From Streptomyces sp. NBC_01298 (lineage in GTDB: Bacteria > Actinomycetota > Actinomycetes > Streptomycetales > Streptomycetaceae): a stretch of 64,000 nucleotides of DNA. The notes beneath the pieces were generated by a model, which was given only the letters and a program-made list of their open reading frames with translations, was not told the DNA's origin and did no database searches. This document shows, in pieces, positions 51,329-57,673 of the stretch; the stretch's first letter is position 1, and every line of letters begins with the position of its first letter. The stretch covers positions 620,001-684,000 of the forward strand of contig NZ_CP108414.1 in assembly GCF_035978755.1 (NCBI RefSeq), read 5' to 3'. The translations under genes and the position numbers were made by a program.

Positions 51329-51438
51329 GGCGGTGCGTCAGTGTCTGACTCCCGGGTCCCCGCGCGGCAAGCGCGGGGCGTCCGGTCACAGTGGCGGGAC
51401 CGCACCGGATTCGCACCGGTTTCCTGTCCTGCACCGCC
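51329..51438 (-). promoter_or_regulatory. Cobalamin riboswitch
   Basis: The minus-strand leader of the transporter operon contains the B12-box core. GGCGGTGC (51438-51431) pairs with GCACCGCC (51336-51329) as the closing helix. Between them are ACAGGAAACCGGTGCGAATC and GGTCCCGCCACTG, the conserved elements, and AGTCAGACACTGACGC near the 3' end. The ribosome site of btuF lies about 35 bases further, so repression is probably by blocking translation. The promoter must lie inside or next to the end of the upstream XRE gene. Confidence 0.93.
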
Positions 51439-54265: not shown

Positions 54266-54778
54266 TCAGGGCATGTTCGAGTCCGACACGCCTTCTTCTT
54301 CGGTCTTGAAGGTACGAAACCCGTGGCGGTGGTAGTTGGGCAGCGCGTTCGGGTTGTCGGCCGACGACGTGTGCAGCCACACCCGGCGCACGCCGGGCAC
54401 CAGATTCCAGCCCTGCCGGATCGCGAGCGTCAGCGCATGACCGCCGAGCCCCTTCCCGGTGAACTCGGGCAGGAGCCCGAACGTCCTGATCTCGACGTCG
54501 GCACCCGGGTGGAGGTCGTAGCAGACCACGCCGGCCGGCTCGTCCCCCAAGTGCAGCAGCCAGCAGGTCCGGTCCGGATGCCCGGCGAACCACGCCTGCC
54601 ACTCCTGGGGACTCCGGCGGGCGCTGCGCCACCGGTACGGAGCACCGATCCTGGCCATCAGGCCGGGAACCAGCGACAGGTCCGCGTCCACAGCGACGAG
54701 CGCGAGTTCCGGAACCGGAACACCGGGCACGAGCTGACCGGGGTCCGTCATCTCTACATGCGTCACGGTCTTCGTCAC
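54266..54778 (-). CDS. GNAT family acetyltransferase
   Basis: A 170-residue acetyltransferase. The acetyl-CoA loop LLPEFTGKGLGGHALTLAI (R/Q-x-x-G-x-G/A) and GVRRVWLHTSSADNPNALPNYHRHGFR are diagnostic. LGDEPAGVVCYDLHP is the preceding strand. The GTG at 54778 was chosen; ATG 54751 is the alternative. The substrate is unknown. Its upstream region is the foldback element at 54829-54991. Confidence 0.85.
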   Translation of the reverse strand: MTKTVTHVEMTDPGQLVPGVPVPELALVAVDADLSLVPGLMARIGAPYRWRSARRSPQEWQAWFAGHPDRTCWLLHLGDEPAGVVCYDLHPGADVEIRTFGLLPEFTGKGLGGHALTLAIRQGWNLVPGVRRVWLHTSSADNPNALPNYHRHGFRTFKTEEEGVSDSNMP

Positions 54779-54828
54779 CCGGAGAAGGCTACGCGCCCTG
54801 TCCGAGGGGAAGGGGCCTCTGCCTCCTA

Positions 54829-54991
54829 GGCCGTCTCTCTCGGATCTTGCCGGGCCCGCGACGCCTGGCACCGCGCCTGGCCGCACTGCCGAGGCGACCA
54901 CGTACACCCAGTACGCGAGCGCCCCGACAGCACGCCCAGGCACGGCACCAGACGCCGCGGACTCGGCCGACAAGATCCGAAAGAGACGGCC
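54829..54991. mobile_element. 163-bp foldback MITE-like element
   Basis: The ends are inverted repeats: GGCCGTCTCTCTCGGATCTT on the left and, inverted on the right, GGCCGTCTCTTTCGGATCTT. TA flanks both ends (54827-54828 and 54992-54993), consistent with a TA target duplication. The similarity continues inward for about 70 bases per arm to an apical CGTAC-ACCCA-GTACG stem-loop (54901-54915). The whole element can therefore fold back. It has no coding capacity of its own. It resembles a non-autonomous element moved by an IS5- or IS630-type transposase. Confidence 0.8.
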
Positions 54992-54994
54992 TAG

Positions 54995-56390
54995 TAGTGC
55001 TTCGTTACGTCGGGTGATCTCGCCTGGTGGTGGGCATCTTCCGGTTATGAGGCTTGGGGAGGTGGAACGACTCCGAGGTGAGTTGGCGGAGTTCGTTGCC
55101 GATGTGTTCGCTTCGCTTCCGCGGCGGGATCAGCGCAGGTGGGGCGGGTGTTATCTGCGGGGTTTGATGTTGGACGGGCGGCGTAAGTCGATCCAGCCGA
55201 TGGCCGAGCGATTGCCGGACGGGAACATGCAGGCCCTGCAACAGTTCGTGAATCAGTCGCCGTGGGATCCGCTGCCGGTGCGGCAGCGGATCGCCGAACG
55301 GCTGACGGAGGCTGTCGGGCCTGAGGTGTGGGTGGTCGACGACGTGTCCTTCCCCAAGTGCGGGACGGCATCCGTGGGGGTGGCCCGACAGTACTGCGGC
55401 GCGTTGGGCAAGACGGCCAACTGCCAGGTCGCGGTCAGCGTCCACGCGGCAACCGACCTCGCGTCCTGCCCGTTGGAGTGGGAGTTGTTCCTGCCGGAGG
55501 ACTGGGCGGCGGACGAGGGCCGGCGGCAAAGGGCCGGGGTGCCCGACGAGATCGGGCACGTGTCGAAGACCCGTCTGGCTCTGGGCCTGCTCGACCGCCT
55601 CGCCACCTGGTTGCCGCGGGTGCCGGTGATCGTGGCCGATGCCGGCTACGGCCGCAGCGTCTCCTTCCGGCTCGCGCTGGAGGAACGCGGCTGGTCCTAC
55701 GTGGTGGCGGTCGATCCCAAAGAGGTCGCACGGCCTGCCTCCGCCGAGCCGTTCCGGCCGGCTTACGGCGGGCTGGGGCCGCCCACGCTGCCCCGCTACC
55801 GCGATGCGGCCCAGTCCCTGCAGAGTTTCATCGATCCCGGCACCTGTTTCCAGGACATCACCTGGCGCCATGGCAGCAAGAGTGCGATGACCTCGCGTTT
55901 CGCTGTCCTGGAAGTGCGTCCGTCGGGCAAGGAAGCCTGCCGGACCGCCCAGGAACAGGCCGGTGGACGCAGCCAGTGGAACGGGGTCCTGCCGCTGCGA
56001 ACCCTGCTGGTCGAACAGCCCGCAGGAGCGGACGAGCCGACCGGCTACTGGATGACCAACCTGCCCGCCACTACCCCGATCGCCGACCTGGTGCGGTGGG
56101 CGAAGATGCGCTGGCGGATCGAACACGACTACCGCGAACTCAAGCACGGCCTGGGCCTGGACCACTTCGAAGGCCGGACCTGGCGCGGTTGGCACCACCA
56201 CGTCACCCTCGTCACCGCCGCACAGGCCTTCCTCACCCTCAGGCGGCTCGACCCAAAAGCACCCACGCCGGCCTGACCCTCTACCAAGTCCTGGACGTGC
56301 TCCAGAACCTGCTGAGGTGCTGGACCGGCACCTGCACCACCTGCGGCCGCCCCCTGACCGCCAGCAGATCCAGAACCTAACGAAGCACTA
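54995..56390 (+). mobile_element. IS701 family insertion sequence
   Basis: A complete 1,396-bp element. The terminal inverted repeats are TAGTGCTTCGTTA (54995-55007) and its complement TAACGAAGCACTA (56378-56390). CTAG flanks both sides (54991-54994 and 56391-56394), a 4-bp target duplication fitting the YTAR target of the IS701 family. It contains one transposase gene. Confidence 0.92.
55047..56276 (+). CDS. IS701 transposase, apparently truncated by a frameshift
   Basis: A 409-residue DDE transposase: VVDDVSFPKCGTASVGVARQ holds the first Asp, VIVADAGYGRS the second, and WRIEHDYRELKHGLGLDHFEGR the Glu. The frame stops at 56276. In the -1 frame an uninterrupted STHAGLTLYQVLDVLQ and CWTGTCTTCGRP tail runs to 56380, close to the right terminal repeat. 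CCCAAAA (56252-56258) lies at the switch in slippery register. The ATG at 55047 was preferred to a GTG at 55014 because the conserved region starts there. Confidence 0.88.
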   Translation: MRLGEVERLRGELAEFVADVFASLPRRDQRRWGGCYLRGLMLDGRRKSIQPMAERLPDGNMQALQQFVNQSPWDPLPVRQRIAERLTEAVGPEVWVVDDVSFPKCGTASVGVARQYCGALGKTANCQVAVSVHAATDLASCPLEWELFLPEDWAADEGRRQRAGVPDEIGHVSKTRLALGLLDRLATWLPRVPVIVADAGYGRSVSFRLALEERGWSYVVAVDPKEVARPASAEPFRPAYGGLGPPTLPRYRDAAQSLQSFIDPGTCFQDITWRHGSKSAMTSRFAVLEVRPSGKEACRTAQEQAGGRSQWNGVLPLRTLLVEQPAGADEPTGYWMTNLPATTPIADLVRWAKMRWRIEHDYRELKHGLGLDHFEGRTWRGWHHHVTLVTAAQAFLTLRRLDPKAPTPA

Positions 56391-56393
56391 CTA

Positions 56394-57516
56394 GTGACCT
56401 GAGTCTGAGGTTTGTCGTTAGTTCGGCATGAGTCGTCCCGGTCCGAAGATTCCGCCGTTGTCGGTGACTGATGCCCAGCGTGCTGTGCTGGAGGGCTGGT
56501 TACGTCGTCGTTCGACAGCTCAGGCTCTGGCTCAGCGGTCGCGGATCGTGCTGGAGTGCGCGGGCGGGCATTCGGTGATGGAAGTTTCGCGGCGGCTTGG
56601 GATCGCGCCGGACACGGTCCGCACCTGGCGGCGGCGGTTTCTGGAGCACGGCCTGGACGGGCTGGGCGACGAGCCGCGGCCGGGTGTCCCGCGGAAGATC
56701 ACCGACGCTGATGTCGAGCGGGTGATCGTCAAAACACTGGAAGAGACGCCGAAGAACGCGACGCACTGGTCGACGAGGTCGATGGCCGCGGCCACGGGAA
56801 TGTCGCAGTCGACCGTCTCAAGGATCTGGCGGGCGTTCGCGCTGGCTCCGCATCGTTCGCAGACGTTCAAGCTGTCGACGGACCCGCTGTTCATCGACAA
56901 GGTCCGCGACGTGGTCGGCCTCTACCTGGACCCGCCGGAGAAGGCTCTGGTCCTCTGCGTGGACGAGAAGTCGCAGATCCAGGCCCTGGACCGGTCCCAG
57001 CCGGTCCTGCCGATGATGCCTGGCGTTCCAGAGCGCCGCAGTCACGACTACATCCGCGCCGGCACAACCACCCTCTTCGCGGCCCTGGAGGTCGCCACCG
57101 GCAAGGTCATCGGGTCTCTCCACCGCCGCCACCGGGCCGCCGAGTTCAAGAAGTTCCTGGCCAAGATCGACAAAGAAGTGCCGGCGGATCTTCAGATCCA
57201 TCTGATCCTCGACAACTATGCGACCCACAAGACGCCGGACATCAAGAAATGGCTGCTGGCACACCCGCGGTTCCACCTGCACTTCACACCGACGAGTGCG
57301 TCGTGGCTGAACCTGGTGGAGCGGTGGTTCGCCGAGCTCACCCAGAAGAAGCTCAAGCGTGGAGTCCACCGCTCCGTCCAGGCTCTCGAGCGCGACATCC
57401 GTTCATGGCTGGCCGACTGGAACGACCAGCCCAAGCCCTTCCTCTGGACGAAGACAGCCGACGAGATCCTCGACAAAGTCGCCGCCTACTGCCACCGAAT
57501 CTCTGACTCAGGTCAC
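56394..57516 (+). mobile_element. IS630 family insertion sequence
   Basis: A complete 1,123-bp element. The ends GTGACCTGAGTC (56394-56405) and GACTCAGGTCAC (57505-57516) are inverted repeats; similarity extends a few bases further with mismatches. TA is present at 56392-56393 and 57517-57518, the TA target duplication typical of IS630/Tc1. The left TA is inside the right CTAG duplication of the IS701 element. Confidence 0.9.
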
Positions 57517-57519
57517 TAG
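56428..57519 (+). CDS. IS630 transposase
   Basis: A 363-residue transposase. The HTH lies at about 30-75, with VMEVSRRLGIAPDTVRTWRRRF. The DDE triad lies in LCVDEKSQIQALDR, LILDNYATHKT and SWLNLVERWFAELT. It is a single intact frame, so it is probably active. The gene reads through the right inverted repeat; its stop TAG at 57517-57519 consists of the duplicated target TA plus the first flanking base. Confidence 0.94.
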   Translation: MSRPGPKIPPLSVTDAQRAVLEGWLRRRSTAQALAQRSRIVLECAGGHSVMEVSRRLGIAPDTVRTWRRRFLEHGLDGLGDEPRPGVPRKITDADVERVIVKTLEETPKNATHWSTRSMAAATGMSQSTVSRIWRAFALAPHRSQTFKLSTDPLFIDKVRDVVGLYLDPPEKALVLCVDEKSQIQALDRSQPVLPMMPGVPERRSHDYIRAGTTTLFAALEVATGKVIGSLHRRHRAAEFKKFLAKIDKEVPADLQIHLILDNYATHKTPDIKKWLLAHPRFHLHFTPTSASWLNLVERWFAELTQKKLKRGVHRSVQALERDIRSWLADWNDQPKPFLWTKTADEILDKVAAYCHRISDSGH

Positions 57520-57597: not shown

Positions 57598-57673
57598 TGG
57601 CAGGGGTGGCAGGGCTCGAACCTACGACAACCGGTTTTGGAGACCGGTGCTCTACCAACTGAGCTACACCCCT
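57598..57673 (-). tRNA. tRNA-Trp (anticodon CCA)
   Basis: A 76-base cloverleaf on the minus strand. The acceptor stem AGGGGTG pairs with CACCCCT. The D arm is GCTCAGTTGGTAGAGC, the anticodon arm CCGGTCTCCAAAACCGG with anticodon CCA, and the T arm is GTAGGTTCGAGCCCTGC (region). The 3' CCA is encoded. Terminator follows. Insertions have accumulated just downstream. Confidence 0.96.

Follow-up and report, generated by a model that had tools for sequence, protein, structure and literature searches.

A palindromic, CTAG-bounded mobile element of Streptomyces whose spreading copies appear to keep the minus strand foldable

Background

Why should the two arms of an inverted repeat differ almost only in ways that leave the RNA of one strand able to pair? 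The question is raised by a locus in a 64,000 bp stretch of Streptomyces sp. NBC_01298 (NZ_CP108414.1, positions 620,001 to 684,000), here called the window, from whose first base all positions are counted. The original prediction described a foldback at 54829..54991 whose arms differ by 12 transitions, all of them G-U pairs in minus-strand RNA, with one transversion and a 4-base bulge, and proposed that it may be selected as a structured RNA on the minus strand, directly upstream of a minus-strand acetyltransferase gene.

Results

The hairpin and its surroundings

The foldback was confirmed and lies well outside chance expectation; a CTAG at either end, part of the element or of its duplicated target, gives it an extent of 169 bp (54826-54994), slightly longer than predicted. 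Its parts and the neighbouring features of the window are as follows.

54826..54994, minus strand (the strand kept pairable): whole hairpin element including both CTAG; it folds, and has 28 further near-full-length places in the genome
54826..54829: left CTAG, taken as one target copy by analogy with the copy at locus L028, where the orthologous site of genome G257 has a single CTAG
54991..54994: right CTAG, read as the second target copy on the same L028/G257 analogy
54826..54849, plus strand: left terminal inverted repeat, from end-pattern matches; 18/21 bases as in the IS5-family copies L374 and L381
54971..54994, minus strand: right terminal inverted repeat, from end-pattern matches; 19/21 bases as in L374 and L381
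54850..54970, minus strand: hairpin core, kept in relatives with different ends, from core-limited matches (~24-135 of the query) in several genomes
54906..54910: 5-base apical loop of the minus-strand fold
54963..54966: 4-base bulge of the minus-strand fold
54266..54751, minus strand: GNAT acetyltransferase gene, incidental and beyond the element (start codon chosen by eye)
55014..56276, plus strand: open reading frame for the DDE_5 transposase of a different insertion sequence, abutting the right CTAG and outside the element
56428-57519: open reading frame for an IS630-like (DDE_3) transposase, directly after the DDE_5 element
51339-51426, minus strand: cobalamin riboswitch aptamer, a partial model match
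57601-57673, minus strand: tRNA gene

Folding both strands of 54810-55010 as RNA, a check that the original prediction had proposed, bears out its preference for the minus strand, which reaches -164.8 kcal/mol (z -14.7) against -119.8 kcal/mol (z -8.8) for the plus strand, with 0 of 200 shuffles as good in either case. The element alone forms, on the minus strand, one end-to-end hairpin of 78 pairs (-159.5 kcal/mol), rather than a small subterminal hairpin at each end as in IS200/IS605 and REP elements. Fourteen of these pairs, instead of the 12 first counted, are G-U and none is of the mirror A-C kind; all 14 run in the single direction that had been predicted: read on the plus strand, the left base is C or A and the right base A or C. 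Self-alignment of the window copy, which uses no fold, yields 13 G-U and 1 A-C. The 4-base bulge is present as described, and the helix holds two transversion-type mismatches (54881/54935 and 54897/54919) where one had been described. Among 25 close own-genome copies compared, the G-U pair 54839/54981 is private to the window copy.

Searched against Rfam, the element reached the gathering score of no family, matches below threshold being at chance level, and a scan that covers streptomycete promoters poorly found no sigma-70-like promoter or terminator in the window copy. A protein-coding explanation was rejected because base changes among the own copies, judged by eye, follow no three-base rhythm. 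Elsewhere in the window, the cobalamin aptamer at 51339-51426 stands at the start of an open reading frame that resembles, by eye, an ABC-transporter substrate-binding protein.

Copies and distribution

Like a MITE, the element is short (169 bp), transposase-less and dispersed in many copies, occupying 29 near-full-length places in this genome (G000), the window copy included; the 82 genome matches obtained in all count both orientations of the palindrome as well as partial pieces. A pattern of the ends, searched with at most 3 mismatches, matched 93 times in this genome and its reversed control 0 times. The copies include shortened hairpins and single ends. Three minimal hairpins of 57 to 66 bp (L098, L099, L100) hold little beyond the two ends. 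With this genome counted each time, matches occur in 35 of 295 same-genus genomes at E<=1e-15 and in 81 of 293 sampled across the order at E<=1e-8 (3 of 9 genera), relatives being found in Streptomyces, Kitasatospora and Embleya. Matching plasmid records comprise 9 from Streptomyces, 2 from Embleya and 1 from Kitasatospora; no record of the phage collection searched matches the hairpin element, which puts carriage by phages out of favour. Among the loci scanned, no autonomous copy lies between identical ends, and a pair 1.29 kb apart in G078 consists of a full element and a separate end around an unrelated gene.

The original prediction's link to the acetyltransferase gene does not hold up, since the element is mobile and stands next to different genes in both orientations, with a G-U lean for either gene strand. 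The gene is an incidental neighbour, and a role of the element as its leader is rejected because other copies have other neighbours.

Target site and gene ends

Two further MITE features, target duplication and an empty site, were found at L028. The insert is absent there from 12 of 12 other genomes searched, whose matched flanks lie 7 to 81 bases apart; those of G257 join at a single CTAG where two surround the insert, and G278, G173 and G074 also have one CTAG, beside small differences. L031 and L032 gave no clean empty site, L028 being the one locus that did. CTAG is intact at both ends in 23/28 own copies and 32/72 copies elsewhere. It is a scarce sequence in this genome, with 141 sites in 464 kb, counted outside the 400 bases at each piece's edges, against 1188 expected from base composition.

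A TAG stop codon is abutted by 20/28 own copies and 51/72 copies elsewhere, compared with 34/141 background CTAG sites (Fisher p=3e-6 and 5e-11, respectively), genes having been called for this count by open frame and third-position GC instead of annotation. In the annotated plasmid neighbourhoods (4 of 5 records) a gene, that for a cyanophycinase in Kitasatospora fiedleri, ends in the element's TAG in one and no gene does so in three. If CTAG is duplicated on insertion, a gene so abutted keeps its stop codon, and part of the enrichment is probably due to the loss of gene-breaking insertions. Orientation with respect to the adjoining gene is even (left-only 10 and right-only 7 for own copies; 23 and 21 elsewhere), and no preference was found with respect to the presumed replication fork (17 or 18/29, the position of the origin being assumed).

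Other insertion sequences are also found at these CTAG sites. The insertion-sequence end AGTGCTTCGTTACG (window 54994-55014, beside the DDE_5 transposase) has near-identical counterparts, so that ends of this kind abut the CTAG of the window copy, L040, L041 and L050; a second end, TGACCTG..., is found next to L022 and L023, on the opposite flank of L050 and beside the single end in L092, and in L026 lies one CTAG further. Other elements that use CTAG seem to land at the hairpin ends.

Terminal repeats and the IS5 family

At L355 an IS5-family (DUF4096) transposase adjoins one hairpin end, and a search of seven genomes with this transposase led to L374 and L381, IS5-family copies of 905 bp each in G000. 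Both are bounded by CTAG and have terminal repeats in which 19/21 bases agree with the right end of the element and 18/21 with the left. The element thus has terminal repeats in common with an autonomous element, as MITEs do, though similar and not identical ones, and L374 and L381 are its likely drivers. No match to the element core was found in their interior (best E 0.39), though the longer G039 relative L377 matches the core weakly (64 bases, 72%, E 4e-4), and a distant connection between core and insertion-sequence interior may exist.

Ends such as CTAGG..TGTCCGGCGGATC occur in other IS5-family members from that search (L380, L399), and ends of the same kind bound the diverged hairpin elements L083, L088, L089, L086, L432 and L437. 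In several genomes the core alone matches (~24-135 of the query) and both ends differ together, while L429, L431, L432 and L085 have different, mutually inverted ends round a similar core. Because core-only matches come with both ends differing together, we infer that the core can switch its IS5-family partner through an exchange of ends.

Single hairpin ends also occur directly before the start codon of similar genes in three genomes (L354:2151-2796, L356:2291-2915, L355:1247-1862), assigned to SMI1/KNR4 by Pfam in L354 and by eye in the other two, and two of these loci have, overlapping the stop codon, a similar end in inverted orientation. These genes are possibly a cassette moved with hairpin ends.

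One strand is kept pairable across the family

Copies were oriented by their sequence match to the window copy, not by G-U content. After omission of 22 fetched loci without both ends, and then of L057 and repeated sequences, 97 distinct copies from 25 genomes remained. By self-alignment, G-U exceeds A-C in 90 of the 97, equals it in 4 and falls below it in 3 (totals 839 and 196), so the homologues do not show the equal numbers of transitions in both directions that the original prediction had named as its refutation. The three reverse copies come one each from G039, G042 and G095, and those of G042 and G095 are nonetheless G-U-rich on consensus pairs. When these 25 genomes, each represented by one copy, are joined by 18 further elements from 18 other genomes outside the tree, G-U exceeds A-C on consensus pairs in 43/43 genomes (362 vs 27 cells), and 18/18 of the further elements fold better on the minus strand. 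The dropped L057, a deletion derivative, gives a plus-strand fold 4.5 kcal/mol better than its minus-strand fold. Four of five plasmid elements have clearly more minus-strand G-U, and L434, which is without the right end, has 5 against 6 on the plus strand.

The covariation proposed as a check by the original prediction was found in the A1 alignment (48 of the 97 sequences), where 34/64 pairs change on both sides and 96.7% of cells are paired, with 0/500 shuffles as high and slid controls far below the observed pairing and covariation. Covariation beyond both kinds of control is a feature of structured-RNA genes; because related sequences beat such shuffles too easily, tests of mutation against selection by spread and by branch weigh more. 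At A1 columns 43/135, 48/130, 49/129 and 53/125 the G-U pair is close to fixation in the family.

Spread of pair states

Parsimony on a tree of the 97 copies and 59 consensus pairs assigned ~117 changes from Watson-Crick pairs to G-U and ~31 to A-C, 88 reversals to Watson-Crick from G-U and 6 from A-C, and 28 double changes, counts that may be inflated by exchange between copies and misjudged polarity and in which A-C states are few. The proportion of G-U to A-C is 47.6:5.6 on internal branches and 69:25.6 on terminal ones (p=0.015 on rounded counts). In the five genomes with at least 5 copies, changes private to one copy divide 13:9 and those shared by at least two 13:1 (p=0.03). When 115 elements are taken together, pair-states confined to a single copy are 7 G-U and 13 A-C, and wider states are 40 and 10 (Fisher p=0.0005). 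Bases unique in a column comprise 3 G-U and 8 A-C, which is not a rate because columns already holding the base hide new G-U changes.

As judged from these counts, new changes appear to lack a lean to G-U, and A-C states arise yet spread less. Since single-copy states do not lean to G-U and spread states are rich in it, copies that multiply appear to be those that keep the minus-strand hairpin, and the pattern is the one that a filter on multiplying copies would leave. This conclusion must be tempered by the G-U lean of the terminal branches as well (69:25.6), which counts against selection, and part of the shared G-U excess may be an old asymmetry retained. Wobble sites in the own copies revert to Watson-Crick far oftener than other sites change, as if arms or copies converted each other, in which case frequent G-U reversals would be expected.

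Discussion

We hold with moderate confidence that the element is a MITE under element-level selection for the structure of its minus strand, probably as RNA, and is moved in trans by IS5-family transposases at CTAG. IS5-family transposases that insert at CTAG would move it in trans, and the copies going on to multiply would be those whose minus strand still folds. The element would need that strand in single-stranded form, most likely as RNA transcribed from the element itself or at a master copy. Long perfect DNA palindromes are unstable in bacteria, and the wobble pairs may represent a compromise in which the RNA helix is kept and the DNA arms are less identical. DDE transposition as usually described needs no folded strand, which leaves the role of the structure in spread unexplained. 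The probabilities that we attach to the readings below are not exclusive, this one overlapping with those that invoke single-stranded DNA or a master copy.

The original proposal of a selected minus-strand RNA is upheld in so far as homologues keep that strand pairable and A-C states appear to spread less; its choice of RNA is less secure, since single-stranded DNA would leave the same mark. The folded minus strand could act as single-stranded DNA, perhaps in an intermediate of transposition or replication that exposes one strand, a reading that we consider unlikely. RNA and DNA are indistinguishable by the pattern, DNA hairpins likewise tolerate G-T better than A-C, and strand-specific cleavage sites at both ends would also leave CTAG twice. 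However, the ends resemble those of a DDE-type IS5-family element and not those served by a single-strand transposase; the element is one end-to-end helix, whereas IS200/IS605 elements have small subterminal hairpins; and copies show no preferred orientation to the presumed fork (17 or 18/29, origin assumed).

Rather unlikely, in our estimation, is selection on the host at a single master locus or a small number of them, with the hairpin acting there in cis on the stability or termination of mRNA 3' ends and all other copies being its neutral offspring. The frequent position at gene ends (20/28 and 51/72 vs 34/141) is as this would predict, and so are private changes that look near neutral beside shared ones that look constrained. 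Yet copies have no orientation bias, and because the same strand is kept in 43/43 sampled genomes and L028, the one own site compared across genomes for this purpose, is empty in 12/12, a suitable master locus would have to recur.

Strand-biased mutation, by which a once-perfect palindrome would gain minus-strand C-to-T changes (for instance while single-stranded or transcribed) with no selection at all, we regard as improbable. Minus-strand C>T is indeed the commonest of the four transitions that leave a Watson-Crick pair (82 vs 14 for G>A), and still common on terminal branches (47 vs 12). A>G also exceeds T>C, however (34 to 17.5), and because both exceed their mirrors, deamination of C alone does not explain the G-U excess. 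Changes confined to single copies are not clearly G-U-biased (7:13, 13:9, 3:8), compensatory double changes are abundant, and the lean to G-U holds in both orientations to host genes, terminal changes dividing 22:7 (G-U:A-C) where the adjoining gene transcribes the plus strand and 14:8 where it transcribes the minus strand. We think it very improbable that this is an ordinary MITE in which a strand asymmetry of ancient and chance origin passed to every copy, for although some G-U pairs are nearly fixed family-wide, G-U occurs at many other pairs in different genomes, and the double changes and the shift from private to spread states would be left unexplained.

Comparison with known elements

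Palindromic MITEs with known RNA folds include ERIC, YPAL, Correia and QMITE1, according to excerpts of two accounts (PMC2229807, PMC5896051). ERIC is a transcribed, intergenic, palindromic MITE of ~127 bp with many copies, the orientation of which, in the excerpted account, matters for its effect in RNA (PMC2229807). All 14 of the ERIC copies folded (14/14) do better on one strand, so better folding of one strand is not by itself unique to the hairpin element. The ERIC sequence is unrelated, however, its non-pairing positions are mostly not transitions (207), and its transitions are mildly one-directional (39 G-U vs 25 A-C in 14 copies, by self-alignment). YPAL, or RU-2, of Yersinia is likewise palindromic, intergenic, recently mobile and similar in length (~168 bp), but differs, as described in the same excerpts, in target duplications of 3-26 bp, the lack of an end TA motif and inverted repeats that are internal (PMC2229807). 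QMITE1 of Coxiella burnetii, also a MITE, forms a very long palindromic RNA structure and has transcripts; its authors found no orthologues in other genomes, and the excerpted account contains no test for strand-specific selection (PMC5896051).

The Streptomyces IS5-family (DUF4096) sequences share CTAG at both ends and terminal repeats (18 and 19/21 bases), but carry a transposase, and the interior of the closest own copies has no match to the core. GTAG-tagged REP elements are moved by single-strand RAYT enzymes. Their ends, too, often supply the TAG stop of a flanking gene, although at 20-40 bp they are far shorter, as given in an excerpt (PMC3733652). Among the titles and abstract beginnings listed by our literature search, the hairpin family is not described, and the word Streptomyces is absent from the main text of a review of prokaryotic MITEs (PMC10969869).

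Implications

Hairpin MITEs are common in bacteria and are, as a rule, regarded as inert remnants of insertion sequences, their folding a by-product of inverted repeats. Under our preferred reading, that of an element-level constraint on the minus strand, a structural constraint on one strand, tied to the spread of copies, would be a new feature for a MITE. A bolder form, which we put forward only tentatively and think unlikely, is that the spread of this DNA transposon depends on RNA folded from its own minus strand, and that the retained core swaps ends between IS5-family partners. If that were true, the minus-strand RNA could recruit or license the partner transposase, which would make the element an RNA-dependent DDE transposon. 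Multiplying copies that stay foldable on one strand, set against single-copy changes that show no such lean, make the need of a non-autonomous DNA transposon for RNA a testable matter, and a retained core with exchanged ends suggests how such elements may change transposase partners.
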